Shown: positions 24,282 to 57,338 of the stretch, piece after piece
Layout: each line of letters opens with the position of its first letter
Position numbering within the stretch: position 1 is the stretch's first letter
Source of the DNA: Gemmata massiliana
GTDB taxonomy: Bacteria > Planctomycetota > Planctomycetia > Gemmatales > Gemmataceae
Length of the DNA stretch: 64,000 nt
Assembly: GCA_000531095.1 (NCBI GenBank)
Contig: HG799463.1
Coordinates: 475,527-539,526 of the forward strand
Direction of reading: 5' to 3'
Made by a program: the position numbers and the translations under genes
The notes under the pieces: generated by a model
The model's input: only the letters and a program-made list of their open reading frames with translations
What the model was told of the DNA's origin: nothing
Database searches by the model: none

Positions 24282-24713
24282 ATGTTGTCAGCGCGCCACG
24301 AAACCTTCTGCCTCGAATACGTCATCGACCTGAACGGGTCCGCGGCGTACCAGCGCGCGTACCCGAAGGTGAAGACCTCTGGCGCCGCGCGCACCGGGGC
24401 GGCCAGATTGTTAGCAAATGTTAGCGTCCGCGAGCGCGTGGCCGAGCTGCAACTCGCGCGCGCCGCGCGGTCCGACACCACACACGAGTGGGTACTGGAG
24501 CGCCTCAAGCACGAGGCCGAGTTCGAGGGCCAGGGGACCAGCCACGCGGCCCGCGTATCGGCCCTGGCCCTCATCGCGAAGCACCTGGGCATGTTCAAAC
24601 CGGTGCCCGTACCGGACCGCCCCCCGATCGACCTGTCGAAGATCCCCGATGACCTCAAACGTGCCCTCCTCGCTGGACTCCGCGCTGTTCGCGGCCCTGG
24701 GGCTCCGGGCTAA
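24282..24713 (+). CDS. Terminase small subunit
   Basis: A 143-residue DNA-recognition subunit of the packaging motor. The N-terminal helix-turn-helix pattern (RHETFCLEYVIDLNGSAAYQRAYP, then a VRERVAELQ segment) is that of the Terminase_2 family. It binds phage DNA at the packaging site and recruits the large subunit. Its 3' end overlaps the large-subunit start by 65 bases, so translation is coupled. It is the first gene of the morphogenesis module. Confidence 0.87.
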   Translation: MLSARHETFCLEYVIDLNGSAAYQRAYPKVKTSGAARTGAARLLANVSVRERVAELQLARAARSDTTHEWVLERLKHEAEFEGQGTSHAARVSALALIAKHLGMFKPVPVPDRPPIDLSKIPDDLKRALLAGLRAVRGPGAPG

Positions 24714-27071: not shown

Positions 27072-29816
27072 ATGCCGGCCACACCCAATTCCCGCCTCCG
27101 CACGCTCGGCCAGCCCCCGGAACCGGACGGGCTCGGCCTTCTGCGCCGCGAACTCGCAGCAAAAACTCGGCGCGTCGAGGAGACGCTCCTCAACCTCGAC
27201 AACCTCATCTCGCCTACCGACTGGCTCGACGCCGGCGACGGGTTCCCCGGGTTCGGCGCGTGGCGCTGGAACCGCCCCGGCACGCGCGACCAGGACCGCA
27301 CCCACGCGCCCATCACCTACCTCAACGAAGAGGACTGGCGCCAGCACGTCGCGCTCGCACGCGACCTGTGCCAGCGCAACCACCTCGCACTCGGGTTCCG
27401 GGACCACGTCGCCAACTTCATCGGACCGATCAGCGTCTCGTTCGTGCTCCGGGGGCAATCTCCCGGGGCCAGCGCCAGCGGTCCCATCGACGCCGACGGG
27501 GACGGCGAGCCGGACGTCGACCCCATCGTGAAGGAAGCGACCCAGGCCTGGGACGAGTGGCGCGAGCTGGCCGAGTGGGGCGAGGGCGAGCACGACCGCG
27601 AGGCCGAGTGCCGCACGCGCCTCATCGTCGAAGGTGAATGTACGCTCCGGTTCTTCACGGGCGACGCGCGCTCCAACGGCCTGCCCCACGTGCGCCACAT
27701 CGAACCCGAACTGATCCGCACCCCACCTGGGGCCAGTACCACCGATCCGTGGGGCTGGGGCATCAAATGTACCGACGACGATGACGAGTGCGAAGAAGCG
27801 CTCTGGCTGTGCCGGCCCGATAACCCCGACGACGGGCGCGAGGTCCGGTCGTCCGAATACGTGCGCGCGAAGGCCAACGTGGACCGCACCGTGAAGCGCG
27901 GACTGTCTGATTTCTTCTCCGTCGCCGAACACCTGCGCAAAGTCCTCGGACTACTCGACAACATGGGGCACGTGGCCCGGCTCCAGTCGGCGATCGCGTG
28001 GTGGGAGCAGTACCCCACCGCGACCGAGGCCCAGGTCCGCGCGATGATCCAGTCGGGCACCGACTACTCGCGCCCGAAGGCGGCCCCCGGCGCGCCCACG
28101 CGCACCAGCGACGTGCAGAACTACGAGCCCGGCTCCATCATCCGCACCGAGGCCGGCAGACAGGTACAACCCGGTCCCGTGGCGACGGGGGTCGCCGGGT
28201 ACGCCCAGGTGGAAGCGCTGCTCCTGCGCGGGGTGGGCTTCCGGTGGGGGTGCCCGAGCTACTTCAGCGGCGATGCGGACGCCAGTTTCGCCAGCGTGCT
28301 GGTGACCGGCTCGCCGTTCGTGCGCATCACCGAGGCGCGTCAGGAGAAGGTGAAGGGGTTCGCGCGTGCGGTGGCGCGTCGAGTGCTGGAGTTCTGCGAG
28401 CGCACCGGCCGGCTCCCGCGCGGCACCACCCAGCGCGTCCGACCGATCGCGACCGCGCGCCCGGTGGTCATCGCGGACGAAGAAAAACAGGCGCGAACGT
28501 TCCTGGCGCTGTACCAGCAAAAGTGCGCGGACCCGATCGAGTTCGTGCGCAAGCGCGGGGGCGACCCGAAGGTGGTCGCGGCCAACATCCTCGCGTGGCA
28601 GAAGAAGTTCGCGCCCCCGGACCAACCCCCGAGCGGGGCGGGGCCGGGCGGCCCGTTCCCCTCACCCCCGGGCAGCGCCGGCGGCGACGGCTCCTCCCCG
28701 AACGCGGCCCCCGTGGGCGAAGCACGCCGGGTACGGGAGGACACGGACAGTAATGGAAAACCACAACCCACAACGCCCGCCGGGGACGGGCTTAAATGGG
28801 AACTGCGTCCTTACCACGTCAACGGCCAAGAGCACACGCGCTGGACGCGGGTCAAGGCGGACGGCTCCGAGGTCCACGAGCCGGACCAATCCGATACCAC
28901 CACACCGCCTCCGGGTGACAAAGATCCCCCAGCGGACACGTTCGATAGTGCTGCCGCCGGGAAGGAACTGGTGGCACAGAAACTATTGCCCAGCGACGCG
29001 GAAATCGAAAAGATCCGAAACGATGGAGCCGGTACGGGCGGCCGGGATAAAGCAAATACGCCCGAACGAAGATGGGAACGTGCGATTGCCGTGATTCTCG
29101 GCCCGGGCTGGAAGGCGAGTGAAAGGGGTAACAGCGCCGACGATGTGAGTGGAAGTATTACTATCAACGGCGTCACGTGCCGCGTCGTCCTTGATGGGAA
29201 ACTGTCCGGCGCGAACAGTTTCTCTTACGTCCAAGACGCAGGAGCAGCCCGCAACAAATTAGACGAGGCGGCCAAACAGGAAAACACGATCGTGGTCTTT
29301 CTCGTCGCCCATGTCATCCCCAAAGCACACGACGGAAGTGCTGCGGCCGATGGTGTGACTATGCGGATCGGCGTGCACCCGCAAACCATTTCGTGGTTAA
29401 ATGATGACATCAAGAAAGCGGGTGAGTCCGGGCCGTTTTCGATACTAACCGGTGCCGAGTACCACGCCCTCCGAACGGGCGACCCGACGGCCATCGAAAC
29501 ACTCCGCAATAATGTTTTCGAGAAGCTCCAGAACATCAACCTCGACAACTACAACACAGCTCAGGGCAACGCAGCCGGCAAGCAATTAGAGAAAACCACT
29601 GACGAAACGAATAAAATGGCGGATACGGCCAAGAAGCTCGGCGTTTCGGAAGAGGAGATCGGAAAGACCGTGGCACTTGCGTCAGCCAAACTACCTGAAG
29701 CAGTACAGATCGCGCAAGTTGGGGCGCTAGTGGACAAATTCTCCGATGATGCTATTGCCAAAATGGAACGACTCCTCGCGGCCGCCAAAGCCAAACGACA
29801 AGCTACTCAGCCATAA
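27072..29816 (+). CDS. Portal protein with long C-terminal extension
   Basis: A 914-residue protein. Residues 1 to about 520 resemble a lambda-type portal, the dodecameric DNA gate of the capsid (e.g. AGYAQVEALLLRGVGFRWGCP then SYFSGDADASFASVL). A Pro/Gly/Ser linker (about 520-570) leads to an extension of more than 300 residues not normal for portals. Within it, DDVSG...VVLDGK (about 690-710), in a beta-alpha context and followed by IVVFLVAHV, looks like a PD-(D/E)XK nuclease core. The last 50 residues (KLPEAVQIAQVGALVDKFSD) are repeated in the next gene. The extension is less GC-rich than the portal domain and is probably acquired. Confidence 0.82.
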   Translation: MPATPNSRLRTLGQPPEPDGLGLLRRELAAKTRRVEETLLNLDNLISPTDWLDAGDGFPGFGAWRWNRPGTRDQDRTHAPITYLNEEDWRQHVALARDLCQRNHLALGFRDHVANFIGPISVSFVLRGQSPGASASGPIDADGDGEPDVDPIVKEATQAWDEWRELAEWGEGEHDREAECRTRLIVEGECTLRFFTGDARSNGLPHVRHIEPELIRTPPGASTTDPWGWGIKCTDDDDECEEALWLCRPDNPDDGREVRSSEYVRAKANVDRTVKRGLSDFFSVAEHLRKVLGLLDNMGHVARLQSAIAWWEQYPTATEAQVRAMIQSGTDYSRPKAAPGAPTRTSDVQNYEPGSIIRTEAGRQVQPGPVATGVAGYAQVEALLLRGVGFRWGCPSYFSGDADASFASVLVTGSPFVRITEARQEKVKGFARAVARRVLEFCERTGRLPRGTTQRVRPIATARPVVIADEEKQARTFLALYQQKCADPIEFVRKRGGDPKVVAANILAWQKKFAPPDQPPSGAGPGGPFPSPPGSAGGDGSSPNAAPVGEARRVREDTDSNGKPQPTTPAGDGLKWELRPYHVNGQEHTRWTRVKADGSEVHEPDQSDTTTPPPGDKDPPADTFDSAAAGKELVAQKLLPSDAEIEKIRNDGAGTGGRDKANTPERRWERAIAVILGPGWKASERGNSADDVSGSITINGVTCRVVLDGKLSGANSFSYVQDAGAARNKLDEAAKQENTIVVFLVAHVIPKAHDGSAAADGVTMRIGVHPQTISWLNDDIKKAGESGPFSILTGAEYHALRTGDPTAIETLRNNVFEKLQNINLDNYNTAQGNAAGKQLEKTTDETNKMADTAKKLGVSEEEIGKTVALASAKLPEAVQIAQVGALVDKFSDDAIAKMERLLAAAKAKRQATQP

Positions 29817-40977: not shown

Positions 40978-42177
40978 ATGAACCACAAGAAGCTCGTCGA
41001 ATCTGTGAAGGCCCACGGCCCCGAGGCCCTCGCGGGGCTGAACGGGGCGCTGGCGGCCAAGGCCCTCCGGCCGCACGAACTGGACCTGGGAGCGCTCTTC
41101 ATCGAGTGCTTCGGGTACTCCAATTTCTCCCACTGCCGCCAGCACCTGGGCGACTGCGCGAGCCGCGCGCACGACGTGATGACCCGCGCCCGCGTGGAGG
41201 AAGCGGCCGGGGCCAACTCCACCGCCGCGTTCCTGAACATCACCCAACAGTTCGCGTACTCCGCGGTGCTCGAAGCCTACGACGTGCCCTCGCGCGTGTT
41301 CGTCAACGCCATCCCCACGCGCCCCTCGAAGTTCAAATCCGAGCGCCTGCCCGGGATCACTCACATCGGGGACGAAGTGGCGGTAGTCGAGGAGGGTAAG
41401 CCGTACCCGGAAGTGGGCGTCTCCGAGGACTGGACCGACACCCCCGAGACGAAGAAGCGCGGCATGGTGGCCCGGGCCACGAAAGAGGCCGTGTTCTTCG
41501 ACCAGACCGGCGAGTTCATGAACCGGCTCAGTTTTTTGGGCGAGTGGCTGGGCGTCAATGACGAAAAGCGCGCCATTGACTGTGTCATCGATGCGGGCGA
41601 AACCGCGAACAACCAGTACCGGTACAAGTGGCGCAACACGTCAATCCCCACTTACGGGGACAACAGCGGCACCCACACCTGGGACAACCTGGCGAACGGG
41701 CTCACGCTCACAGACTTCAACTCGATCAACACCGCCTGGCAGGTGCTCGTGGGGATCACCGATCCCTACACGGGCGAGCCGCAAAACGTCACCATCAAGC
41801 ACATCTGCGTGCCCCCGGCGCTGGCGTTCACGGTCCCGTTCGCGCTCAAGGGCATGGTGAAGCGCACCGCCCCCGGCTACGCGACCAGCGGGAACCCCAC
41901 GGGCACGGAGATCGACAACCCGGTGGGCGACATCGTGGGCAACCTCCAGGTGCTCACGAGCCAACTGTTCCGGAACCGGAGCGGGTCCGATACCGCCTGG
42001 TTCATGGGGGATGTGGGCCGGGCCTTCGAGCAGATCGAGAACTGGCCCCTCACGGTCACGGCGATCGGCGCGGGGAGCCAGCTCGAATTCGACAACGACA
42101 TCATTTTCCAGTCGAAAGTGTCCAAGCGGTCCACGTTCAGCACGCGCCAACCCCGTGCAATGGTGAAGTGCGCGTAG
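40978..42177 (+). CDS. Major capsid protein
   Basis: A 399-residue protein in the canonical position, with an HK97-like layout: an N-terminal helical segment, FLNITQQFAYSAVLEAYDVPS, an E-loop-like region (GDEVAVVEEGKPYPEVGVSEDW), and a late PENDWPL-like motif (QIENWPLTVTAIG). Like some HK97-fold capsids without a long delta domain, it may use the separate scaffold encoded in the protease gene. AAGGA precedes the ATG. Intact. Confidence 0.85.
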   Translation: MNHKKLVESVKAHGPEALAGLNGALAAKALRPHELDLGALFIECFGYSNFSHCRQHLGDCASRAHDVMTRARVEEAAGANSTAAFLNITQQFAYSAVLEAYDVPSRVFVNAIPTRPSKFKSERLPGITHIGDEVAVVEEGKPYPEVGVSEDWTDTPETKKRGMVARATKEAVFFDQTGEFMNRLSFLGEWLGVNDEKRAIDCVIDAGETANNQYRYKWRNTSIPTYGDNSGTHTWDNLANGLTLTDFNSINTAWQVLVGITDPYTGEPQNVTIKHICVPPALAFTVPFALKGMVKRTAPGYATSGNPTGTEIDNPVGDIVGNLQVLTSQLFRNRSGSDTAWFMGDVGRAFEQIENWPLTVTAIGAGSQLEFDNDIIFQSKVSKRSTFSTRQPRAMVKCA

Positions 42178-43943: not shown

Positions 43944-44219
43944 GTGCCCTACGTAACCATCTACCGCCGACCGACCGCGAGCGGGGATCTGTTCCGGCAG
44001 ATTTCCGGCCTGGGCCTCCCGAGCCCGGACGACCCCGAAGACCCGTTCGGCGTGTCCGAGACGTCGTTCACGGTGCCACAGGCGAAGTTGGCCGAAGCCC
44101 AGATCGACCCGCCGAGAGCGGGGGACCAGATCATGGACAGCGCCGGGCGCTGGTGGGCGGTCGGCGCGGACCAGGAACAAGACCCGGACGGATACACCGT
44201 CGATTGCGGCGGTGCGTGA
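43944..44219 (+). CDS. Head-completion-like protein 3
   Basis: A 91-residue protein from GTG 43944. PPRAGDQIMDSAGRWWAVGA again matches the small SH3-like pattern of the genes at 42851 and 43671. The start is three bases after the previous stop. Three related genes in a row suggest expansion of a connector ring component. Confidence 0.62.
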   Translation: MPYVTIYRRPTASGDLFRQISGLGLPSPDDPEDPFGVSETSFTVPQAKLAEAQIDPPRAGDQIMDSAGRWWAVGADQEQDPDGYTVDCGGA

Positions 44220-44627: not shown

Positions 44628-45211
44628 TGGCACGCACCCTAGCAGAAATCTTGAACAGCCCCGCCGACTACGTCTACGAGGGCAAGGCGTACAAGCTCCG
44701 GGAGGCCGCGCTCGACGAGTGCGGCCAGTACCAGCGGTGGATGGAACAGGAGGCCCGCGCGAGCGCGGCCCGCGCCACGGAGCTGCCCGAAGAGGACCGG
44801 CGCAACCTGCTCCGCGACGTCCAGGCCGACATCGCGGCCCAGCGGTACGCCTGGGGCGGCGAGGCGTGCGTGAACAGCCTCCGCACCCCGAACGGGATCG
44901 CGAAGCTCCTCTCGATCGTGTGCGCCGACCAGGGCGTGACCGAGGCGCTCGCGCGGAAAATCGTCCAGAGCCACTTCCTCGACGTCGCCCAGTTGCTCCT
45001 CGGCGTCCTGGAGAGCGACCCCGAGGGAAAAGAGTTGGCGCCAATCCTGAACCGGATGGGGCTGGCGCCGAACTTCTTCCACAGCTCGTCACCGCCCTCG
45101 CCAACGCCCCCTACCGGCGCGACCTCCGGGAGCTCGGCCGGCTCAGCGTCACCCAGCTCCGGGCCGTCTTCCTCGACGTCGCCCGCGACGAGCACGGGCG
45201 CCCCGTCCTGA
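44627..45211 (+). CDS. Tail assembly chaperone G (unshifted product)
   Basis: A 194-residue product of normal reading. Residues 1 to about 145 are helical and protein-like (AYKLREAALDECGQYQRWM; KIVQSHFLDVAQLLLGVLES); the last 45 residues (SSSPPSPTPPTGATSGSSAG) are low-complexity and result from reading past the slippery site. Chaperone G coats the tape measure protein before tube polymerisation. The slippery heptamer is at codons 133-135. Confidence 0.8.
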   Translation: MARTLAEILNSPADYVYEGKAYKLREAALDECGQYQRWMEQEARASAARATELPEEDRRNLLRDVQADIAAQRYAWGGEACVNSLRTPNGIAKLLSIVCADQGVTEALARKIVQSHFLDVAQLLLGVLESDPEGKELAPILNRMGLAPNFFHSSSPPSPTPPTGATSGSSAGSASPSSGPSSSTSPATSTGAPS

Positions 45212-45363
45212 CGGTGCCGAAGGGCAAGATGCTCTCGCCCCGGGCGCTCCACGATCTGCGGTTCTTCCTGCTCGGCATTCGCGCCCCGGAACTCGTCCAA
45301 CAAGCGTGGGACGAGCACCAGGCGAAGAAGAAAGCGGCCTGCCCGAAGCGGCGCCGGAGGTGA
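44627..45363 (+). CDS. Tail assembly chaperone GT, -1 frameshift product
   Basis: After reading 135 codons to 45031, a -1 slip at GGGAAAA gives continuation in the other frame from 45031: RVGANPEPDG, then AELLPQLVTALANAPYRRDL and ELGRLSVTQLRAVFLDVARD, ending at 45363. The fusion is about 245 residues. The shifted frame has no start of its own and is open exactly from the slip site, as in lambda gpG/gpGT. GT links the tape measure complex to the tube subunit. Confidence 0.8.
45025..45031 (+). promoter_or_regulatory. -1 ribosomal slippery site GGGAAAA
   Basis: In the zero frame the sequence reads G GGA AAA, an ideal X-XXY-YYZ heptamer and one base different from the lambda G-T site (GGGAAAG). 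It lies 180 bases before the zero-frame stop. I did not predict a downstream pseudoknot; GC-rich DNA follows. Confidence 0.8.
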
Positions 45364-45366
45364 CCC

Positions 45367-46542
45367 GTGGACCGACAACTCCTGTTCGCGATCGAGCTGC
45401 TCCGGCAGGAGATCGCGCACCTCCCACTCGCGGTCGCCAGCAACGCGGCCCGGTCCGCGCAAGCGGCCCCCCAATCGGGCCGGCGCGACCCGATGACCAT
45501 GTTGAGCTACAGTGCCAACGGGTCGGGCGGGTTCGCGGTCCCGGGCACGGCCACCAACCCGCTGAACGTGCCGCGCGCGGCCCCACCGGGGCGCGGGGCG
45601 CGGGTCGCGGGCGCCGCGGGGCAACTGGCGGCGGGCGGGTTCGGGAAGCTCCAGGCGGCGACCGCGACGCTCGGCGGGGCGTTCGGGAAGCTCCTCGGCC
45701 CGCTCGGGATGGTGACCACGTTTCTCACCTCGAGCGCCTCGGGGTTCTCCGTGTTGAACGGCGCGATGGACCTGTTCGCCAGCTCGTTCGGGGCCGTCGT
45801 GATGCCCGTCATGTACGCCCTGTCGGTCGCGTTCGTGGCCGGGGCCGACGTCATCAACCGCAAGCTCATCCCCGTGATGAGCGACTTCACCAAGAGCGTG
45901 CTCAACAGCGCGGTGCCCGCGATCGAATCACTCGCCAACATCGCGGGCAAGGCGGCAACGGCCCTGGCGTTCCTCACGAATAATAAACTCACGCGATTAA
46001 TGAGCGACGACCGGGGCGGGATGCTCGGCGCGCTCGACCGCACCATCGATCGGGTCTCCGACGATACACCGTCCGGGCCGCAGAGCGACGGGAGCCGCAT
46101 CGGGCGGGCGAAGAACGCGCACCGCATCGCGGACGACCTGGCGACACTGTTCCTGGGGCCGATCGCTGGGAACTCGCTCGCGGGCGCGAAAAACTGGTCG
46201 ATGAAAAAGATACTCGGCCAGGAAGCGGACCCGTACTCGGGACCGGGGGTAACGGGCGGGAAGAAGAGCGAGGGGGCCGAGGCAACCGAGCGCGCCCGGC
46301 AGTTGGTGATGCAACAGTTACAGTTCAGCACGGCGCCCCGGGCCAACATCAGCAACGCGACCGGTAACTGGTCCCGCGCACAGATGGCGAGCTTGGGCAT
46401 GTCGCCCTTCGAGCGCGAAAACCTCAAGAACCAGCGCGAGATACTGGCCCAGCTCATCAAGGGTAACAGCGAGGTGCCCGCGAGCGGCGCCTACACCGAC
46501 TTGGTGGGCGAAGCGAACCGGCTCACCGCGGAGAACAAATAA
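45367..46542 (+). CDS. Tape measure protein (short)
   Basis: A 391-residue protein in the position following G/GT. Gly/Ala-rich hydrophobic segments (VAGAAGQLAAGGFGKL; LASSFGAVVMPVMYALSVA; FLTNNKLTRLM) and helical stretches fit a tape measure protein. By the usual rule of about 1.5 angstrom per residue, the tail would be short, about 60 nm. The GTG start lies four bases after the GT stop. Overlap TAATG with the next gene. Confidence 0.75.
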   Translation: MDRQLLFAIELLRQEIAHLPLAVASNAARSAQAAPQSGRRDPMTMLSYSANGSGGFAVPGTATNPLNVPRAAPPGRGARVAGAAGQLAAGGFGKLQAATATLGGAFGKLLGPLGMVTTFLTSSASGFSVLNGAMDLFASSFGAVVMPVMYALSVAFVAGADVINRKLIPVMSDFTKSVLNSAVPAIESLANIAGKAATALAFLTNNKLTRLMSDDRGGMLGALDRTIDRVSDDTPSGPQSDGSRIGRAKNAHRIADDLATLFLGPIAGNSLAGAKNWSMKKILGQEADPYSGPGVTGGKKSEGAEATERARQLVMQQLQFSTAPRANISNATGNWSRAQMASLGMSPFERENLKNQREILAQLIKGNSEVPASGAYTDLVGEANRLTAENK

Positions 46543-47561
46543 TGCCCGTTGATCCCGATACCGGAATGTTGCGCCCGTTCAATGACGATGAAATCGACGC
46601 GATGCAGATCCGCACGTTCGGCGTGCGCGACCAGTCCCACGGCGAGGAGACACGGCGCATCGGCGAGAACACGATGCGCAAGAGTTTCTTCGTTAAATGG
46701 GCCGAGCGGTTCAATTTCGTGGAATTGGTCTGTGGGGATCAGAAGACCTACGTCGAGAGCGGGTTCACGAAGCTCTCGCGGCTCTTGCCCGACGAGGTGT
46801 ACGGCATCCACCACCCGGACTTCCCCGAGATCGTGGCGACGCGGATCGACAGCATCCGCGGCGCCAACGGCCCCGGGGTCGATGATGAGGATGGAGTGGT
46901 GGAGTACCCCGACGCGCGCGTCGATGTGTTCTATGAGCACGTCCCGTATGACCTCCTCACGGACGACGAGATCGCTGATGCGGAAGCGACCGAATTTGAG
47001 CGATACACGTACTTCGGAGGATCGACCGGGAGCGCGCAGAATATCAGCGTTCCCGGTGGCGCAATGCGGTACTGGCGCGAGCCCGGCGACGGGACTGCTG
47101 TTCCGCACAATACGCCCGTGCCTTACGGCGTTTCCATTAGCCGAGCGGAAGAGGAGTTCACCTGGAATTGGGTGCAACTACCCGAAAACGCATTCAGCCC
47201 GAACAGCAACCTGTACCAAAGAATTTACGGCACAACGGAAGGTGATTTACCGTTCATCGGGTGCATCAACAGTTCCCCGATTTTTGAGCGCCCGCACGGG
47301 ACAGTGATGTTCACAGGCGTCACAGCAAAACTGGAACGAGCGCACACAGGAAAGGGGCGCCGGTGGTCACTGGAGTACAAGTTCGCTTATAGTTCACTCG
47401 GCTGGAACTGGCTGTTCTACCCAGACCCCGCCGGAACAAACGCGGGGTGGTACAACGTAAATAACACGGGGTACGCGGAAGCAGATACGCTCAACGATCA
47501 CACATCGCTAGTACCCGGAGCGCGTGACCTCAATTTGTTGTTTAGCGTGGCGGCCGTCTAA
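46542..47561 (+). CDS. Tail protein whose 3' end seeds the cassette array
   Basis: A 339-residue protein immediately after the tape measure gene, the position of distal tail proteins. The C-terminal 90 residues (RRWSLEYKFAYSSLGWNWLF, YNVNNTGYAEADTLNDHTSL, PGARDLNLLFSVAAV) occur twice more downstream as partial copies. Its stop codon overlaps that of the convergent secreted-protein gene by four bases, an arrangement preserved in the copies. The function of the N-terminal part is unknown. Confidence 0.7.
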   Translation: MPVDPDTGMLRPFNDDEIDAMQIRTFGVRDQSHGEETRRIGENTMRKSFFVKWAERFNFVELVCGDQKTYVESGFTKLSRLLPDEVYGIHHPDFPEIVATRIDSIRGANGPGVDDEDGVVEYPDARVDVFYEHVPYDLLTDDEIADAEATEFERYTYFGGSTGSAQNISVPGGAMRYWREPGDGTAVPHNTPVPYGVSISRAEEEFTWNWVQLPENAFSPNSNLYQRIYGTTEGDLPFIGCINSSPIFERPHGTVMFTGVTAKLERAHTGKGRRWSLEYKFAYSSLGWNWLFYPDPAGTNAGWYNVNNTGYAEADTLNDHTSLVPGARDLNLLFSVAAV

Positions 47562-47920
47562 GGCTTCTTCTCGACGGATTTCTTTTCAGAGAATGCCTTA
47601 AAGACTCCGTCAACCCCACTCACACCCTTCTTGACTACATACACCGTGCCATCGGCTTCAGTTATCTCTGAACCGGTGGTTGGTTCTGCTCGACCGACCG
47701 CATTTTTGCTGATCACTTTAAACAGGATGCGGTCTCCATTTACTATTTTTTCAGCTGTCACGTCTTCTTGCGGCTTCAGAAACTGTTTCCCTCGTGCGTC
47801 CCAGCTCTTCACGGTGATCTTCACCGCGGTCCCTTTCTTGTCGTCCTGTGCGGGCAGCGTATCGGGCATCGCGAGAACTCCCAGAAATGCGAGCGCGAGA
47901 GCGGACAGTATCAGTCGCAC
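47558..47920 (-). CDS. Secreted small protein, array copy 1 (type I)
   Basis: A 120-residue exported protein: signal peptide about 1-24 (ILSALALAFLGVLAMPD, cleavage after LPAQ or PDTLPA), a conserved basic strand (VKITVKSWDARGKQFLKPQE), a variable middle (residues 53-72), then TTGSEITEADGTVYVVKKG and a Lys-rich tail. GTG start with a perfect AAAGGAGG upstream. The motif P-x-x-x-x-x-I-T-E-A-D-G-T-V matches the head-completion protein at 42851, so it may be a secreted derivative of a connector fold. Function unknown. Confidence 0.72.
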   Translation of the reverse strand: MRLILSALALAFLGVLAMPDTLPAQDDKKGTAVKITVKSWDARGKQFLKPQEDVTAEKIVNGDRILFKVISKNAVGRAEPTTGSEITEADGTVYVVKKGVSGVDGVFKAFSEKKSVEKKP

Positions 47921-47981
47921 GGGTCGGCCTCCTTTGTAACGGGCGGACCCATGACACTACCACAACGAGCGGTAGCCGAAA

Positions 47982-48299
47982 GTGAACATGCGCTCGTCAG
48001 TCCTGATAGCAGATGTGCTCTTCGGCCGACTCGCGGGAACCGTGCAACTCATGAAGGTGAAGCCGACCCTGTTGCGGGCTCACAACGCGGAAGGGTGGCG
48101 CTGGCGCATCGAGTTCACGTTCGCGTACAGCGCGATGGGCTGGAACTGGCTGTTTTTCCCCGACCCGAGCGGAGTCAACGGGGGCTGGTACAACGTGAAC
48201 AACAAGGAATATCAGGAAGCCGACGTGCTCGATGACCACCGGTCGCTCACCCCAGGGGCGCGCGACCTGAACATGCTGTTCAGCGTGGCCGCGGTTTAG
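47982..48299 (+). CDS. Partial copy of tail protein C-terminus (cassette A1)
   Basis: An open frame of 105 codons from a GTG without a good ribosome-binding site. RIEFTFAYSAMGWNWLFFPD and YNVNNKEYQEADVLDDHRSL align with the last 85 residues of the tail protein at 46542. Its stop overlaps that of array copy 2 just as the tail gene's stop overlaps array copy 1. It is probably a silent donor cassette or duplication remnant rather than an independent gene. Confidence 0.55.
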   Translation: MNMRSSVLIADVLFGRLAGTVQLMKVKPTLLRAHNAEGWRWRIEFTFAYSAMGWNWLFFPDPSGVNGGWYNVNNKEYQEADVLDDHRSLTPGARDLNMLFSVAAV

Positions 48300-48658
48300 G
48301 GCTTCTTCTCGATGGGCTTCTTCTCAGCCGTAGCCATGTACTCGCCCTTGTTGGTTGAACTGCCTTTCTTTACCACGTAGATTGTGCCGTCCGCATCCGT
48401 GATCTCAGAATTCGTCGTTGGTTGCCCACGGCCCACGGCCTGTTTCACAGGCACAAAAAAAGCGATCCGGCCGTTCAGCTCAACCCGACGCGCCTCGATA
48501 TCTTCCTGCGGCTTAAGGAACTGTTTCCCCTGTGCGTCCCAGCTCTTCACGGTGATCTTCACCGTGGTCCCTTTCTTTTCGTCCTGTGCGGGCAGCGTAT
48601 CGGGCATCGCGAGAACTCCCAAAAATGCGAGCGCGAGAGCGGACAGTATCAGTCGCAC
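48296..48658 (-). CDS. Secreted small protein, array copy 2 (type II)
   Basis: A 120-residue homologue of copy 1 with an identical signal peptide and upstream AAAGGAGG. The middle is of a second type: EARRVELNGRIAFFVPVKQA in place of the KI-x-NEGR-x-x-FK-x-SGK pattern. The motif NSEITDADGTIYVVKKG is kept. The contrast between near-identical flanks and divergent middle suggests diversification of an exposed surface. Confidence 0.72.
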   Translation of the reverse strand: MRLILSALALAFLGVLAMPDTLPAQDEKKGTTVKITVKSWDAQGKQFLKPQEDIEARRVELNGRIAFFVPVKQAVGRGQPTTNSEITDADGTIYVVKKGSSTNKGEYMATAEKKPIEKKP

Positions 48659-48687
48659 GGGTCGGCCTCCTTTGTAACGGGCAGGCC

Positions 48688-48824
48688 CATGAGACTACCA
48701 CAACGGGTGGCCAAACGGGATCAAAGAGAAATGCTTGCTCGATTGGCGGCCGGGAACGTCGGGGACAAGGACGCGCGCTTCCATGTCCCCGAGATAAAGT
48801 ACGTGCTCGTCCCCAGTGGGATTA
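48688..48824 (+). other. Cassette B1
   Basis: It begins like cassette A (ATGAGACTACCACAACGGGT) but continues with a different sequence that has an open frame MRLPQRVAKRDQREMLARLA, then NVGDKDARFHVPEIKYVLVP, and ends at the MITE. A near-identical cassette lies at 50098-50232. Origin unknown; possibly the 3' end of another phage gene. Confidence 0.5.
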
Positions 48825-48985
48825 GAGCCTGTTATGAACCTGGCGCGTGTGGAAACGCTTTGATTTCAGCGTGACGGCACATGCGTGCCAGACGGCCGCG
48901 ACCCTCTTTCCATGTCCCCGCCCTGCGAAACTGCAAAAGCGCCGGGAAACCGAGCGGCGATCTGACCCAGGTTCATAACAGGCTC
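48825..48985. mobile_element. 161-bp MITE with TA target duplication
   Basis: Perfect 19-bp terminal inverted repeats (GAGCCTGTTATGAACCTGG at 48825-48843, its complement at 48967-48985) are flanked by TA on both sides. Comparison with the empty site in the duplicated unit (50229-50234, GATTAAGG) shows that the TA was duplicated on insertion, as for IS630/Tc1-mariner-type elements. The element has no coding capacity and needs a transposase in trans. Insertion changed the stop codon of the adjacent gene from TAA to TAG. Confidence 0.85.
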
Positions 48986-49347
48986 TAAGGTTTCTTCTCG
49001 ACGGGCTTCTTTTCGCTGAATGCGCTGTACTTGCCGTCGGCCCCCCGGTTACCCTTCTTGACCACGTATACCGTCCCATCGGCTTCGGTGATCTCAGAGC
49101 CGGTGCGCGGTTCGGCGGTGCCGATTGCGACTTTCCCCGAGAGCTTAAACAGCACCCGACCTTCGTTCTCGATCTTTGTTGCTTCCACATTCTCGGCCGG
49201 TTTCAGGAACTGCTTGCCGGCCGCGTCCCAGCTCTTCACGGTGATCTTCACCGCGGTCCCGTTCTTGTCGTCCTGTGCGGGCAGCGTATCGGGCATCGCG
49301 AGAACGCCCAGAAATGCGAGCGCGAGAGCGGACAGTATCAGTCGCAC
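48985..49347 (-). CDS. Secreted small protein, array copy 3 (type I)
   Basis: A 120-residue type I copy; middle EATKIENEGRVLFKLSGKVA, then RTGSEITEADGTVYVVKKG. Its TAG stop codon takes one base from the MITE end. Signal peptide and Shine-Dalgarno sequence are identical to copy 1. Closest to copy 5 within the array, as expected from block duplication. Confidence 0.72.
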   Translation of the reverse strand: MRLILSALALAFLGVLAMPDTLPAQDDKNGTAVKITVKSWDAAGKQFLKPAENVEATKIENEGRVLFKLSGKVAIGTAEPRTGSEITEADGTVYVVKKGNRGADGKYSAFSEKKPVEKKP

Positions 49348-49408
49348 GGGTCGGCCTCCTTTGTAACGGGCGGACCCATGACACTACCACAACGGGTGGT
49401 AGCCGAAA

Positions 49409-49723
49409 GTGAACATGCGCTCGTCAGTCCTGATAGCAGATGTGCTCTTCGGCCGGCTCGCGGGAACCGTGCAACTCATGAAGGCGAAGCCGACCCTGTT
49501 GCGGGCTCACAACGCGGAAGGGTGGCGCTGGCGCATCGAGTTCACGTTCGCGTACAGTGCGATGGGCTGGAACTGGTTGTTTTTCCCCGACCCGAGCGGG
49601 GTCAACGGGGGCTGGTACAACGTGAACAACAAGGAATATCAGGAAGCCGACGTGCTCGATGACCACCGGTCACTCACACCCGGTGCGCGCGACCTGAACA
49701 TGCTGTTAAAGGTGGCCACTTAG
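49409..49723 (+). CDS. Partial copy of tail protein C-terminus (cassette A2)
   Basis: 104 codons, almost identical in DNA to cassette A1. The end differs (MLLKVAT instead of LFSVAAV), where the cassette meets array copy 4. No good ribosome-binding site. Probably a silent cassette. Confidence 0.5.
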   Translation: MNMRSSVLIADVLFGRLAGTVQLMKAKPTLLRAHNAEGWRWRIEFTFAYSAMGWNWLFFPDPSGVNGGWYNVNNKEYQEADVLDDHRSLTPGARDLNMLLKVAT

Positions 49724-50067
49724 GGCTTCTTCTTCTCACAGGTGGCTTGGTACTCGCCTGTGTTCGAGTCGGTTCCCGATTTAACCACGTAGACCGTACC
49801 GTCTGCGTCCGTGATCTCGCTCCCCGTGCGGGGCTTGCCCGTGCCAATTGCCTGTTTGCCTGGGACGAAAAAGTAAACCGCGCCCTTCAACTCCACTCGG
49901 CGCGCGTCTACCTCGGCCGGGTTCAGGAATTTTTTGCCCATTGAGTCCCAGCTACGAACCGTGATCTTGACCTTCGTTTCCTTCTTCTCGTCTTGTGCGG
50001 GCAGCGTATCGGGCATCGCGAGAGCTCCCAGAAATGTGAGCGCGAGCGCGGATAGGGTTCGTCGCAC
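49720..50067 (-). CDS. Secreted small protein, array copy 4 (type II)
   Basis: 115 residues, the most divergent member: MRRTLSALALTFLGALAMPD signal, then WDSMGKKFLNPAEVDARRVE and LKGAVYFFVPGKQAIG. It keeps GSEITDADGTVYVV but has a shortened tail (CEKKKP). GTG start behind AAAGGAGG. Its partner in the other block is copy 2. Confidence 0.7.
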   Translation of the reverse strand: MRRTLSALALTFLGALAMPDTLPAQDEKKETKVKITVRSWDSMGKKFLNPAEVDARRVELKGAVYFFVPGKQAIGTGKPRTGSEITDADGTVYVVKSGTDSNTGEYQATCEKKKP

Positions 50068-50097
50068 GGGTCGGCCTCCTTTGTAACGGGCAGGCCC

Positions 50098-50232
50098 ATG
50101 AGACTACCACAACGGGTGGCCAAACGGGATCAAAGAGAAATGCTTGCTCGATTGGCGACCGGGAACGTCGGGGATAAGGACGCGCGCTTCCATGTCCCCG
50201 AGATGAAGTACGTGCTCGTCCCCAGTGGGATT
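50098..50232 (+). other. Cassette B2
   Basis: Near-identical to cassette B1 (a few substitutions), without the MITE; it joins copy 5 directly through GATTAAGG. It therefore records the pre-insertion state of unit 3. Confidence 0.5.
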
Positions 50233-50593
50233 AAGGTTTCTTCTCGGCGGGCTTCTTTTCGCTGAATGCGCTGTACTTGCCGTCCCCGTCGAACGAGCCT
50301 TTTCGGACAACGTAAACTGTACCGTTTGCGTCGGTGATCTCGGACTTGGTTGTCGGTTGCGCTCGCCCAATAGCCACCTTCCCTGAAATCTTAAACTGCA
50401 CCTGGCCCTCGTTCTCAATCCGGGTCGCTTCCACGTCTTCCTGCGGCTTAAGGAACTGTTTCCCTCGTGCGTCCCAGCTCTTCACGGTGATCTTCACCGC
50501 GGTCCCGTTCTTGTCGTCCTGCGCGGGCAGCGTATCGGGCATCGCGAGAACGCCCAGAAATGTGAGCGCGAGAGCGGACAGTATCAATCGCAC
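50231..50593 (-). CDS. Secreted small protein, array copy 5 (type I)
   Basis: A 120-residue type I copy; middle EATRIENEGQVQFKISGKVA, then TKSEITDANGTVYVVRKG, and the tail SAFSEKKPAEKKP, which closely matches copy 3. Same signal peptide and Shine-Dalgarno sequence. It ends the recognisable array; beyond it only the start of another cassette remains. Confidence 0.72.
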   Translation of the reverse strand: MRLILSALALTFLGVLAMPDTLPAQDDKNGTAVKITVKSWDARGKQFLKPQEDVEATRIENEGQVQFKISGKVAIGRAQPTTKSEITDANGTVYVVRKGSFDGDGKYSAFSEKKPAEKKP

Positions 50594-50629
50594 GGGTCGG
50601 CCTCCTTTGTAACGGGCGGACCCATGACA

Positions 50630-50824
50630 CTACCACAACGGGCAGCCGCCGAAAGTGAACACGCGCTCGTCAATCCTTACGACACATGCACTCCTCGACC
50701 CGAACGAGCCGGGGCGAAATGCGATAACGCAAGCAATTCCGACCCGTGTTGCCGCAGGGATTGCTCCGACGGACATCGACATCAGAAGACACAGACCTCC
50801 CGTAACTTTGACCAGCCACTTCAC
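50630..50824 (-). CDS. Possible small secreted protein at array edge
   Basis: A 64-residue frame from GTG 50824 with a convincing signal peptide (MKWLVKVTGGLCLLMSMSVG) and GGGGGA just upstream, at short spacing. The remainder is Cys- and Arg-containing without family resemblance. Its last codons overlap the conserved cassette start, so it may be a fusion remnant. The rest of 50594-51070 holds no supported gene. Confidence 0.35.
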   Translation of the reverse strand: MKWLVKVTGGLCLLMSMSVGAIPAATRVGIACVIAFRPGSFGSRSACVVRIDERVFTFGGCPLW

Positions 50825-51070
50825 ACTTCCCCCAAAATAACCAACATTCGGCTCCCCCGGTTCACGCCCCTTGTCGCCGGGCCGCGGCAAGGGTGGTAGC
50901 GAGCGGCTCCTCGACTTGAATCGTGGCACCGGTCGCGACCGTTCCGAATCGCCCTCGTCATTTTTGCACGGCGTCGTCGGTCGGGTGAGGCGGATCTCCG
51001 GGCGTGCCACCTCCGTTTCGCGACGGATCTGAACGGCTGCGTGCAAGTGCCGGCGTGCCATTGGCCCTTC

Positions 51071-52710
51071 ATGCGGCCCACTTCGTCATTCCCGAACCCG
51101 TCCTCACCGTACTTCCTGGTGCGCATTACCGCGGCCCTGGGGGGCGGCGAGTACGCCTTTCAGGAACAGTGGCTCCTCCCGGACGGTACCTACGCCGACA
51201 AAGTCGGGGGGCGCTACGGCGGCAGCGAGAACCCGGGCGTCGCGCTCACGGGCGTGGCGCTGGAGGTCGGGGACTGCGCCCTGTGCCGCTCGGCCGACGG
51301 CGCGGGCGGGCTGACGTGGGAACTGGTCAAGCAAAAGGGCACGTGCGGCACGACCACGACCACGACCGCCGGCCCCCCAACGACCACCACGACCACCGGC
51401 CCGTGTTCGGGCTCCTGCCAGTGGACCTATTCGGCCTCCGCGAAGGCCTGGTCCCGCGCGAGCAGTTCGTGCGGAACCGGGTGCGCGTGCCTCGCCCCCA
51501 CCTTCTGCCCGGCGACCGATGCCTGCACCAGTACCGCCTGCGGGCACTTCGGAACGGACCAGGCGCCCCCGTTCTGCGGCGGCGCGACTACGACGAGCGG
51601 CGCGTGCACGACAACGACTACCGCCCCGGGGCCGGGGTGTACCGCCGGGTGCACCTGGTACTGCCACCCGACCCGGGGGTGGCTGCTGAAGAACAACGGG
51701 TGCGCGGGCAGTTGCCCGTGCGGCGCCCCCGCGACCCCGTGTACCGGTTCGTGCGAAGAAACGAGCACGCCGTGCGTGCCCCCGCCCCGCCCCCGCGGCC
51801 CTACTGCGCCGGGGGGTGCCGCTGGGTCTGGGTCACCCCCGAGAACTACTGGTACAAGCTCTCGGACTCGTGCGCCGGTGTGGGCGTGCCCAACTGCTAC
51901 TGCGACCGGCCGGCCCCCGACGGCACCGAGTGCGCGGAAGAAGCTAGTACCTTGTGCTACGTACACGGGAGCCCGACGGGCAGCCCCCCGTGCAGCGCGG
52001 TCACCACCACGACGGGGGGACCGGGGTCCGGGTGCGAGGGGACGTGCCTGTGGGGTAGTTCGAGTGGCGCGTCGTGGGACACGATCCTCCGCGCGTGCCC
52101 CGCGTGCGACTGCGCCCCACCGGTGGGCGCACCGACGGGCACCTGCTCCCAGGCCGAGGGGCCGTGCGTCCCCGGGGTAACGACCACCACACCGGGCGCC
52201 ACGACTACGACCGCCGGTACCTGCGGGAACTGCACCTACCAGTGCAACCACACCGGCATCGGCTACCACTACGTGAGCTCGGCGTGCGGCGCCGGGTGCG
52301 GGTGCCCGGACATCGTAGTCGATAGCGCGTGTGCCCCGGGCAGCTTCCGGGCACTCGCCTGCCGGACCGACGGGACGACACCCGGCCCGACCACGACGAC
52401 AACGACAACTACGACCACGCCGGCCCCGACCACAACCACGACCACGACGTCCCCGGGACCGCCCGCCACCACGACCACCTCGGGCGGCGGGACGACCACC
52501 CCGGGCGGGGGCGGGAGCACAGCAACGAGCGGGGGCGGGGGAACGACGACCCCGGGCGGGCCGTCCTACTTCTGCCAAACGTGCGAGAACGGCAGCCCGA
52601 ATTTCTGCAGCGGCGTGATCGTGTGTACCGTGATCGGGGCACACTACACGATGATCGACTGCGTCGCGAACTGCCAAACGCCACCCGGAACGAGCACGTT
52701 CCTTACGTAA
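51071..52710 (+). CDS. Cys-rich, Thr-linker fibre protein, frameshifted
   Basis: A protein of about 545 residues read in two frames: 51071 to about 51790, then a -1 change to the frame ending at 52710. A short N-terminal domain is followed by six Cys-rich modules of about 45 residues (C-x-x-x-C-x-W ... W ... C-x-x-x-C-x-C pattern, e.g. CTAGCTWYCHPTRGW), joined by runs of Thr with Pro/Gly (TTTTTTAGPPTTTTTTG). Module homology on both sides of the junction shows that it is one gene. The junction lies in a C-rich tract (51775-51800), where a sequencing indel is plausible. The long Thr runs are possible glycosylation sites. Start uncertain (GTG 51041 also possible). Confidence 0.7.
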
Positions 52711-53346: not shown

Positions 53347-55791
53347 CCTGTTGACGATCGGCATGGCGACGCGGGGCGAGCCGGACCACGTGTGGTTCAC
53401 GCTCACGGCCCTGCACGCGAACCACCCGCGGTGCCGCTACGTCGTGGTGGACAACACGCCCGGGCGCGACCCGCGCGTGGAGGCGATCACGCGCGCCGTG
53501 GGCGGCACGTACTACCACCGCCCGGACCTCACGGGGACCAGCGCGCCGCGCGACGCGGTGTTCCGGTTCGCCGAGACGCCGTGGGCCATGTGCATCGATT
53601 CGCACGTGGTCCTGGAAACCGGCGCGGTGCGGGCGGCGCTCGATTTCGCCGCCGCGCACCCGGGCTCGCGCGACCTGGTACAGGGGCCGATGATCTACGA
53701 CGACGGGCACGGGTACGCGACGCACTGGACCCCGACCGCCCCGCCCGGCCTCTGGGGGGTATGGGGGCGCGACCCGCGCGCGGCCACGGGCGCGCCGTTC
53801 GAGATCCCCATGACGGGGCTGGGGCAGTGGCTCATGCGCAAAGAGGCCTGGCCCGGCTTTAACCCGCTGTTCCGGGGCTTCGGCGGCGAAGAAGGGTACC
53901 TGCACGAGGTCGTCCGCCGCGCGGGGGGAAAAGCACTGTGCCACCCGGCGCTCCGGTGGCGCCACAAGTTCCGGGACGTGTCCGGCTGGCACAACAACCC
54001 GCCCCCGCCGTACCCGCTGCACCTGAGCGACCACGTGTGGAACCTCCTGGTCGGGCACCGGGAGCTGGGTATCGAAGCGACGGAACAGATCCGCGCTCAC
54101 TTCGGGAAAAGACTGGGCGCCCGGGAATGGGACGCGCTGGTACAGGCCGCATCCGCGGCCCAACCGTTCGGCGGCCCGCGCCCGGAAGTGAAGCGGCAGA
54201 AGATCCTGGCCGTGTGGTATTCGGACAACACCGCGCCCGCGGAACTACTGAAGCACTCGGCCGCGTCGGTCATCGCGGCCCAGGCCCAAACGTTGCGCCA
54301 CGACGTGACCGTGTCCGCGTGCTCCTGGGACCCAATCGTCGGCGCGCCGTTCGACCGCCCGGGCACCCGGTGGGGCCAATTCCGGGGCGCGCGGTTCGGG
54401 GCTACGGTACCATCCTGGCCCAGATCGAACAGGCCCATCAGCGGGCCGGGGCGCCCGGCGACTTCGACGCGGTCGCGTTCTGCGAGCACGACGTCCTGTA
54501 CCCGCCCGGGTACTTCGACCGGGTCGGTGACGCGCTCGCCGCAAACCCGTCCGCGCCCGTCGTGAGCCACCTCGACTACATCGGGCTGAACGCGACCGGC
54601 TGGCAGGCGGTCCGGGCGCGGCACGAACCGCTGCACCAACTCACCCTCCGGGCCGATGCGTTCCGGGCGAACCAAGAGCGGGCCAAAAATGACGCGCTCC
54701 GGTCCGATGTGGTCATCCTGGAGCCGGACCGCGGCGGCGCGCGAACCGATTGGGCGCGCATCACACCGACGGCCCCGAGCGGCGCCACCGGGACACCGAG
54801 CGTTCACGTGAACCACAGTGCCGGGCGCTTTACCGCGCACGGGGACGTGTGCTACGAGCCGCGCGGGTTCGCGCTCTGGCACCCTCACTGGGGCGAAGCG
54901 AAGCACTGGTGGCCGGGCGACATGAGCACCGTCACAGACGTGGCGACCGACCAGTTCAAGGGGGCGGGGTGCTCGGCGTGCGAGGCCTCGAAGCACCTCA
55001 CCCTGGAATCGTGGGCAAAAGCGGCTGCGACCAAACCGTCCGACTTCCACGAGCACGTTCCCACGCTCCGGGATCTGGCCGCGCAGTGTACCAGTGCCAC
55101 CGAATTGAGTTTGTGGACGAAACCCGCCGACGCAGCAATGGCCCACGGCCTGGGTGCGACCGGCTCGTTCACCAGCGTGTGCCCGCGCCCGAAACCCCAG
55201 TGGGCCGAACTCACCCGGCTCATGGGCGCGCGGTTCACCGGCATCGCGGTCGACCCGGCGTCCGCCCCCGTGGCCCCTACGGACCTGCTGTTCGTCGACA
55301 CGGACCACACCGCGAGCGCGCTTCTGCCGCTCCTGGAGGCGCACCACGAGCACGTGGCCAAGTACCTCGTCGTTCACTGCACCGTGACCTTCGGCGAGAC
55401 GGGAGACAAGCCCGAAACCCCGGGCGTGATGCACGCACTCCGCGCGTTCTGCCTCAAACACACCGAGTGGGTGGTGAAGCGCCACGACCGGAACAACCAC
55501 GGCCTCATGATCCTGTCGAAGTGCCCCGAGGACGTGAAAGAGCTCCCATCGCTGTGGCGCAAGGCGATGAACTACACCGCGGCCATGATCCGGCACAAGG
55601 CGGCAGGGTCACCGGTCGTCCCCCTGGAGGTGCTCGAGGAGCGCCAGGGCCACTGCGCCACGTGCGAGGAGCGCGCCCTGGACGCCTGCGCCGCGTGCGG
55701 CTGCCCGCTCGAAGCGAAACTCCCCCTGGCCACCGAGACGTGCGGCCTGGCGAAGAAGGGCAAGAACCCGAAGTGGGCGGCGCTCGCGTGA
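53336..55791 (+). CDS. Two-domain glycosyltransferase, frameshifted
   Basis: A protein of about 818 residues in two frames. Domain 1 (53336 to about 54190) is a GT-A family 2-like transferase: LTIGMATRGEPDHVWFTLTA, MCIDSHVVLE as the metal-binding region, FRGFGGEEGYLHE. A second transferase-like domain starts at KILAVWYSDNT, and after the frame change at about 54390-54402 (TTCGGGGCTACGG) continues with YGTILAQIEQAHQRAG, then AVAFCEHDVLYPPGYFDRVG. The C-terminal region ends in a Cys cluster (CATCEERALDACAACGCPLE). The shift lies in a G run: one base deleted, or a sequencing error. Confidence 0.75.
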
Positions 55792-55976
55792 CGGGCCGCA
55801 TGCCATTGGCCGGACACGGGACACAGTAACTCAACAAGAAGTGATCGGGAACCGTGCCGTGATCGCGCGATCGCGAGTGTTCGTGGTGGTGCGACAGATG
55901 ATCGAGGCCAATGCCACTTTGGGGCTGTTGGTCCGGAAAGTCCGGCGAACCCTCGTCCTAACTCGATGACGCAATT

Positions 55977-57338
55977 ATGGCCTTCAACGCGAACACTGCC
56001 TGGGAAGTACGAGTGACCGGGGACGACACGAACGGGGGCGCGTTCAATCTGCTCGCGTTGTCGACCGGGACCACGGACTACTCGCGCTCTGACGCCCCCG
56101 CCGTGTCCGTCACGGACGCGGTGACGAACGGGACAACGACGATTACCAGCGCGTCCGCGAACTTCCCGAGCGATTGCTTGGGTAACGGCATCTGCATCTC
56201 GGGCGGAACGGGCGGGATCGTCCAGCGGTGGGCACAAATCCTGTCCCGGACCAACGCGAACACGATCGTGGTGGACTCGGCGACCGGGCTGACGACCGGT
56301 ACGGGCGCGACGCTCAAGGTGGGCGGCGCAGTCGCGTCCCCGGGCGGCGCCTGGAACGCGCACCTCGTGTCGGGGAACTACGTCTTCATCAAGTACAACG
56401 CGACCCCGTTCCTGATTACTTCGACGGCGCAGAACGCCCCCGGCGGGCGCATGGCGCCGATTAACGGCGTCGCGTACTGCGGTTACGACACGGCGCGGAC
56501 CCTGCGCAACTTCGACGCGAACCGGCCGACGATTAAGCTCGATTCGAGCCTCTCGACTACGAACATTATTTCGAGTACCAGTTCCGCTCTGATCGAGAGC
56601 CTGATTCTCGACGGGAACAACATCACGAGCGGCACCGGGTGCACACACCGCGGGTCCGTGTGGCGGTGCCGGTTCCAGGGGTTCACAGCCGGGACCGCGA
56701 CAGACGGGGCCGCGACCGGGATCAGCGAGGCCGTCTTGTGCGAGTTCACGGGCAACTCGGGTGTCGCGGCCTGCACGTACTACAACGCGCGCTGGTGCGT
56801 GGCGTGGAACAACAGTTTCACCCCGTTCGCGGTCGTCGCGACGTGCGAGAGCTGTCTCTCGTTCAACAACACCGGCGCCACCACGGACGGGTTCTCGGCG
56901 TCGCGGAAATTTTACAACTGTGTGAGCTACAACAACGCCCGGAACGGGTTCGCCATCTCCAACGCCAATGAGAGCGCGGCGACCAACTGTATCGCGGAAC
57001 TCAACGGGGCGTTCGGGTTCAGCGGTAACAGTTCTCAGCCGATGCTCGTCAACTGTGCCGACTACGCGAACACAGTGAACCGGGTCAACAGTTGCCGAGA
57101 TGTGTACCCGATCATTTTGACCAGTTCGCCGTTCGTAAACGCGGCGGGCGGAGTTTTCGACCTCAACAACGTGACCGGTGCCGGGGCGCTGCTCCGGGCC
57201 CTGGCGATACCGGCCGCACTGCCCAACGGCGCCGGAGTGAACTACCGGGACGTGGGCGCCCTCCAGCACCCGGGCGGCGGATCGGTGGGCGGTCCCGTTC
57301 GCGTGCTCGCGCCTAACACCTGGCAATTTGTGGGGTAA
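55977..57338 (+). CDS. Beta-helix tail spike-like protein
   Basis: A 453-residue protein rich in short repeated strands with N, G, S and C turns (SALIESLILDGNNITSGTG; AVLCEFTGNSGVAACTYYNA; KFYNCVSYNNARNGFAISNA), the signature of a right-handed parallel beta helix. Such proteins form phage tail spikes that bind or cleave surface polysaccharide. No catalytic motif was identified. It is followed three bases later by the next fibre-like gene. Confidence 0.8.
   Translation: MAFNANTAWEVRVTGDDTNGGAFNLLALSTGTTDYSRSDAPAVSVTDAVTNGTTTITSASANFPSDCLGNGICISGGTGGIVQRWAQILSRTNANTIVVDSATGLTTGTGATLKVGGAVASPGGAWNAHLVSGNYVFIKYNATPFLITSTAQNAPGGRMAPINGVAYCGYDTARTLRNFDANRPTIKLDSSLSTTNIISSTSSALIESLILDGNNITSGTGCTHRGSVWRCRFQGFTAGTATDGAATGISEAVLCEFTGNSGVAACTYYNARWCVAWNNSFTPFAVVATCESCLSFNNTGATTDGFSASRKFYNCVSYNNARNGFAISNANESAATNCIAELNGAFGFSGNSSQPMLVNCADYANTVNRVNSCRDVYPIILTSSPFVNAAGGVFDLNNVTGAGALLRALAIPAALPNGAGVNYRDVGALQHPGGGSVGGPVRVLAPNTWQFVG

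Follow-up and report, generated by a model that had tools for sequence, protein, structure and literature searches.

A 64,000-nt stretch of the Gemmata massiliana genome (contig HG799463.1, positions 475,527 to 539,526; hereafter the window) carries a prophage that encodes primase, terminase, portal and capsid proteins. Directly behind a tail gene of this prophage lies an array of five leftward genes for small, putatively exported proteins (S1 to S5), between which stand rightward cassettes of two kinds, namely copies of the 3' end of the tail gene (A1 and A2) and a second sequence (B1 and B2). The tail gene and the array are made up as follows (aa, amino acids; ORF, open reading frame).

46542..47561, plus strand: tail gene, 339 aa, probable tail-tip protein, from its position behind a 391-aa gene
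47558..47920, minus strand: S1, predicted exported protein, type I, 120 aa (ORF list; signal peptide by eye)
47982..48299, plus strand: cassette A1, tail 3'-end copy, last ~93 codons (tail homology from about 48012)
48296..48658, minus strand: S2, predicted exported protein, type II, 120 aa (ORF list; signal peptide by eye)
48691..48824, plus strand: cassette B1 (129/135 identical to B2)
48825..48985, no strand assigned: insert of ~161 bp resembling a miniature inverted-repeat transposable element (MITE), with inverted terminal repeats; TA on both sides; at the junction of B1 and the S3 end
48985..49347, minus strand: S3, predicted exported protein, type I, 120 aa (ORF list; signal peptide by eye)
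49409..49723, plus strand: cassette A2, second tail 3'-end copy (tail homology)
49720..50067, minus strand: S4, predicted exported protein, type II, 115 aa (ORF list; signal peptide by eye)
50099..50233, plus strand: cassette B2 (matches B1)
50231..50593, minus strand: S5, predicted exported protein, type I, 120 aa (upstream flank rejoins the region shared with the sister prophage L069, see below)

The interleaving of five leftward genes with tail-end and other cassettes, proposed in a preliminary description of the window, was confirmed by ORFs, repeats and tail homology. The tandem period is S1-A1-S2-B1, repeated as S3-A2-S4-B2 and followed by S5. Both A and both B cassettes share one orientation, and direct-repeat families between 45000 and 52500 reach five copies. 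A 4-nt overlap joins the stop codons of the tail gene and S1, and the same overlap is found between A1 and S2 and between A2 and S4. The two A cassettes match tail residues 245-339 (62% aa identity) and 245-338 (57%); they are indeed copies of the tail 3' end, of about 93-95 codons rather than the 85 first given. Cassette B had no copy in the genome beyond B1 and B2 and gave no match among the fetched tail loci, which together with the prophage records L068 and L069 made up the search outside the genome; its origin was not found. The MITE-like insert is absent from B2 and has three further genome copies at 100% identity, so that its insertion appears recent. The I-II-I-II-I alternation of the S proteins holds in the middle segment, where the proportion of nonsynonymous differences (pN) is 0.18-0.30 within and 0.33-0.43 between types. 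Over the whole protein it is weak (S1-S2, 72% identity; S1-S5, 74%).

Divergence between the two tandem units is sharply uneven. The A cassettes are identical at 293/309 positions and the B cassettes at 129/135. For S1 and S3, the 5' half plus upstream region agrees at 208/222 positions and the 3' part at 141/211; for S2 and S4 the corresponding values are 149/179 (5' half) and 128/212. The contrast of divergent S middles with nearly unchanged A cassettes is thus as first described. Selection was assessed on nine S genes, those of the window and of L069, all of which have open frames. The 5' part showed a mean proportion of synonymous differences (pS) of 0.22 and a mean pN of 0.05 (pN/pS of the means, 0.24), the middle a mean pS of 0.74 and a mean pN of 0.28 (0.38 of the means), with synonymous sites saturated in many pairs. 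This contrast indicates that sharing of the 5' ends is recent and that the bodies belong to old lineages subject to purifying selection; positive selection on the middle was rejected on the same values. A run test on S pairs reached p < 0.05, uncorrected, in 26/36, all eight pairs with S4 being not significant. Since this test alone cannot separate exchange from uneven constraint, the argument for exchange is carried by the exact stretches named below. A neutral tandem duplication with decay, in which nothing past the first pair has a function, would account for the one unit pair that is a plain tandem duplication and for the presence of fragments and a mobile insert. It is poorly reconciled with nine of nine open, constrained S genes, with the uneven identity between units and with the reshuffling between near-identical prophages, and a broken S gene does occur elsewhere (locus L040); we regard it as unlikely.

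Two IMG/VR records bear directly on the array. L068 is the window's own prophage, without a difference in the 11,558 bases that were compared, starting at 44001, and L069 is a sister prophage. When identity was computed per 250-nt chunk, L069 was 95-100% identical to the window from ~38.9 to 46.5 kb, i.e., over ~7.6 kb ahead of the tail gene, fell to 74-76% inside the tail gene (82% aa identity of the tail proteins), and returned to 97-100% from 50.5 kb until ~55.2 kb, except for one chunk at 93.6%. Between these limits the order in L069 is tail gene, S3-like gene, a third 3' cassette (C), an S gene with the S1 body, B, an S5-like gene, a short A-like remnant and one further, new S gene. The first S is 92% identical to S3 over 103 aa and the third 97.5% identical to S5. 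The last 171 nt of the L069 tail gene match A1 at 169/171 positions, the preceding 114 nt at only 70/114, which marks a sharp breakpoint; over the same 171 nt the window tail gene matches A1 at 121/171. Cassette C begins with A1 sequence, diverges from it in the middle and returns to it close to the 3' end. In L069, a 230-nt exact stretch that includes the end of the window tail gene (~18 nt) and the body of S1 occupies second place, with a new tail/S pair ahead of it, and thus records a displacement. The S gene concerned has a body identical to S1 and a 5' half from another S (132-site run, permutation p 0.001). Hence, exchange between array and tail gene has occurred in nature, and these rearrangements are exchanges and displacements, not point changes. 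A static duplication, for which the preliminary description had named both neutral or purifying rates and a lack of exchange among relatives, agrees with the purifying rates and conflicts with the exchange seen here. Misassembly was considered as a source of the L069 tail end and first units and judged unlikely, because the internal exact repeats there are 56 nt or less; the longest, of 221 nt, joins units 3 and 4, which could be artefacts.

To place the array among related loci, the tail gene and S were traced in other genomes. S1 matched in 3 of 95 family genomes and the tail protein in 10 of them, and a phylum survey with a tail profile was positive in 3/392 genomes, the own genome included. 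Sixteen loci in which the tail gene is complete or almost so were compared, namely L069 and 15 taken from the genome search. Left out were an orphan tail end (L043), a tail gene cut by a contig end (L045), the two window cassettes, and L028 and L029 as partial matches; L040, with a frameshifted S gene, and L041, with a broken tail gene, were counted as pair-bearing and no base was restored. At 14/16 loci the strand opposite to the tail gene bears an S gene no more than a few tens of bases from the tail stop. BLAST alone missed those of L047, L050, L051 and L054. With a profile built without these four, each was the best ORF of its locus (E values 6.1e-18, 4.9e-13, 6.9e-24 and 3.7e-7, respectively), and leave-one-out profiles recovered five more, giving nine remote S genes with E values of 3.7e-7 to 7e-33. 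Cassettes are present only in the window and L069 among the 14 S-bearing loci, single pairs being the common state. To judge from this conservation, the ancestral unit is a tail gene with a convergent S gene.

In another reading, the tail C-terminus would be an effector-like tip and S its immunity protein, which would make the array a strict orphan immunity array. The displaced 3' ends beside small genes are the anatomy of arrays of the type VI secretion system (T6SS) and of Rhs, and the distances of S correlate over 12 pairs with those of the tail protein (C part, Mantel p 0.0025; N part, 0.0005). The correlation is, however, not stronger for the C part (rho 0.32, against 0.47 for the N part), so a partnership of S with the C-terminus in particular is not indicated. 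At fine scale, A sequence adjoins three different S genes (S2, S4 and an S3-like gene), the partner gene runs counter to the tail gene, and searches of Pfam and PHROG with the tail protein gave no match, to a toxin domain or otherwise. A strict effector-immunity array is accordingly quite improbable.

A second array was found at a remote tail locus. Behind the tail gene of L078 (genome G010), whose product is 25% identical to that of the window, stand a lipoprotein gene (leftward), a copy of the last ~170 codons of the tail gene (rightward) and a further lipoprotein gene. Between the two units, cassette and lipoprotein N-terminus are near-identical, and ~190 nt that encode the C-terminal part of the lipoprotein are not (14-23/40 per segment compared). 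Thus, the cassette almost equals the resident tail end, and it is the exported protein that varies. By its sequence, L078 is an independent two-unit array with a lipoprotein of a family different from S. Pfam showed no relation between the lipoproteins of the remote loci and S. In 6/7 remote tail loci an opposite-strand gene for a putatively exported protein lies near the tail gene: as a lipobox gene (by eye) beside it in L078 and L079, before it in L076 and L077, and one to two genes past it in L087 and L089.

These arrangements bear on the proposal that the tail 3' end receives sequence from the A and C cassettes as silent donors, with a change of host specificity, the S genes being passengers or flanking homology. 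As an event, donation from a cassette is documented by the 169/171 tract in L069, and cassette C, with A1 sequence at its two ends and a divergent interior, looks as it would after an exchange. As the purpose of the array it is weakly supported, because A1 and A2 are near-identical, so that the window offers one alternative only, and because in L078 the cassette resembles the resident end while the exported protein varies. Moreover, most S-bearing tail loci have a single pair and no cassette, and the window and L069 tail genes differ from codons ~31 to the end, beyond the cassette region, with 159/245 differences at third codon positions, as between two working genes. A cassette bank is therefore rather unlikely to be what maintains the locus. 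The other purpose suggested beforehand, a varied family of surface or exclusion proteins, is better supported; the exclusion half is preferred because of gene position, export signal, opposite strand, conservation at 14/16 loci and replacement by lipoproteins of other families.

We therefore favor, with a probability of roughly 0.5, the reading that the array stacks genes for exported superinfection-exclusion proteins and grew as tail-3'-end/S modules were displaced, in the way of orphan immunity arrays. The locus would be the part of a temperate phage that serves host recognition and evolves fast, the gene at 46542 probably being the host-recognizing tail gene. Because each S gene is read from its own start, on the strand opposite to the late tail operon, it could be expressed in the lysogen while that operon is silent. 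The S protein would act outside the cytoplasm and block adsorption or entry of related phages, as T5 Llp and Cor do. Recombination would bring in a new tail-3'-end/S module and push older S genes downstream; the tail fragments between S genes would be displaced ends, which also offer homology for further exchange, and several S genes would be kept since they may give wider protection. The module may thus help the host cell to shut out rival viruses. More tentatively, and with clearly less confidence, the array might serve as a prophage memory: each change of tail tip would keep the exclusion gene of the old tip, closing the lysogen to a growing set of competitors, the scraps would record the order of the switches, and the layout would have arisen at least twice with unrelated exported proteins.

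Two known systems guide this interpretation. T5 Llp is an exclusion protein whose gene is adjacent to and downstream of that of the receptor-binding protein pb5, and exclusion proteins of many siphophages are recognized by their position behind gpJ (PMC9586334). As with Llp and with Cor of T1 and phi80, a gene for a small, putatively exported protein lies beside a tail or receptor-binding gene and the slot varies between phages. An exclusion role for S fits this pattern, because the opposite-strand slot beside the tail gene is filled by exported proteins of different families. S adjoins the tail gene at nearly all loci, receptor binding of the tail protein being a presumption from position. 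Unlike Llp and Cor, S has neither a lipobox nor a known family, is convergent with the tail gene, stands five deep and has tail ends in between; the lipoproteins of L078, L076, L077, L079, L087 and L089 are closer in kind to Llp and Cor than S is. In V. cholerae, orphan immunity arrays with displaced ends arise by successive displacement and homologous recombination (PMC5361080). The present array resembles these and the Rhs and contact-dependent inhibition (CDI) arrays in its row of small genes, displaced 3' ends and frequent homologous recombination. A row of small-gene variants, interspersed with 3' ends displaced from the gene ahead of them, is present in the window and also in the independent L078, and an old partner, S1 body plus tail end, stands in second place behind a new pair in L069. 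The present array differs in having a phage tail gene in place of a toxin gene, a partner that is putatively exported and encoded on the opposite strand, and no cognate specificity seen.

Several observations weigh against the favored reading. It is drawn from sequence comparison and gene position. Unlike Llp and Cor, S1 and S4 gave neither a PHROG match nor a Pfam match above the cut-off, and the signal regions of S1 to S5 contain no cysteine and no lipobox (by eye), whereas the unrelated proteins of L078 and L079 have such a cysteine. The tail-tip identity of the 46542 product rests on position and weak folds. L046 and L053 are tail loci with no S partner, L088 shows, by eye, no opposite-strand gene for an exported protein, and arrays with tail scraps were seen in the window, L069 and L078 only. 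The closer tracking of the tail N part by S, given above, belongs here as well. Finally, the window and L069 differ also at 28.75-30.75, 35.5-38.75 and 55.75-57.25 kb, so the array locus is not uniquely variable.

Structure prediction gave a further alternative for S. The mature part of S was modeled with AF2 as a six-strand fold (mean pLDDT, predicted local distance difference test, 76.2). Comparison with VIA placed phage neck proteins at the top (XkdH, Z 9.3; Pam3 neck, 9.2; Chi neck, 8.8; lambda neck, 8.4), and 10/11 best rows were neck entries of phages, gene transfer agents (GTAs) or satellites, with Z 9.3-7.5. Together with weak Pfam rows below the cut-offs (Phage_H_T_join_3, E 0.088; DUF1833, E 0.03), this could point to a virion or assembly factor with a stopper-like barrel fold instead of an exclusion protein. 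Against such a role stand the predicted signal peptide, the opposite strand and the multiple variants of S; Foldseek returned no match with E <= 0.001, and by VIA's own note a Z near 8 may reflect a common arrangement only. We consider a virion factor very unlikely. The tail protein model (pLDDT 75.7) had no PDB match with E <= 0.001 and VIA Z values of at most 4.9. It had 20 BFVD matches with E <= 0.001, of which 16 are labeled as uncharacterized proteins of uncultured Caudovirales phages and four are nameless. The tail-tip assignment thus follows from gene order, the 391-aa gene ahead having a weak minor-tail match; the family alignment of the tail protein holds 15 rows. No tblastn match for S1 at E 0.01, and none for the tail protein, was obtained among 50,697 phage records. 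In the 9.27-Mb own genome there is one other significant S relative (37%, contig C9, E 7.6e-9), and three more rows lie at E 0.2-0.5.

Dedicated variation systems were also considered. Diversity-generating retroelements and invertible tail-fibre segments are systems that switch tail specificity, and the locus shares with them a variable tail-gene 3' end. A retroelement was rejected: the window (positions 475527-539526 of contig C2) contains no reverse transcriptase, the six PF00078 matches of the genome lying elsewhere, and in the comparison of the window tail gene with A1 53/104 mismatches involve A, with no adenine-limited change. An invertible segment or shufflon was likewise rejected, as 45000-52500 holds no inverted repeat pair (0) and all cassettes have one orientation. 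Donor-cassette antigenic variation of the pilS or vls type proceeds by gene conversion. Conserved ends, variable middles and archived partial copies recall it; unlike there, the S bodies are old purified alleles and there is no single expression site, because every S has its own start and ribosome site.

Exclusion genes have so far been known as single genes beside receptor-binding genes, and a limited search of the open-licence PMC literature returned no report of an array such as this. If the favored reading is true, a recombining stack would illustrate the way in which exclusion specificities build up in temperate phages, a counterpart to the orphan immunity genes that bacteria collect. The named alleles and exact breakpoints make it testable, in Gemmataceae, whose phages are little studied.

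Some tail/S pairs lie in a different setting. L039-L042 (genome G009) and L044 (own genome, contig C9) have no capsid or portal genes in the fetched stretch and may be phage satellites or worn prophages. L039 and L040 carry a primase-like gene, and several such loci a small helix-turn-helix (HTH) protein like a terminase small subunit (by eye). The small HTH protein is resembled (by eye) by the product of a same-strand gene in L046, ~100-556 nt after the tail stop. In L040, L041 and L044, two species share at 90-97% identity a stretch of ~145 nt that comprises the sequence upstream of S and the part for its signal peptide, and the S body of L044 is only ~35% identical to window S; this stretch is possibly a shared element end or a recombination site.

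Three further genes identify the surrounding prophage.

24418-26211, plus strand: terminase large subunit (phrog_38, E 1.6e-70)
27072-29816, plus strand: portal (phrog_21, E 7.8e-88)
40978..42177, plus strand: major capsid protein of the same prophage (PF25209, E 3e-11; 100% in L069 and G009)

The capsid recurs in four other genomes of the genus (G009, 100%; G011, 96%; G010, 76/75%; G026, 70%, partial). Within the stretch at 55750-57250, L069 has no match between well-matched flanks; it covers a gene at 55977, perhaps another host-range gene. Behind the array, at 51004-52710, lies a gene rich in Thr runs and Cys-rich repeats, which is retained in the related prophages L076-L079 and L048 at 35-57% identity.

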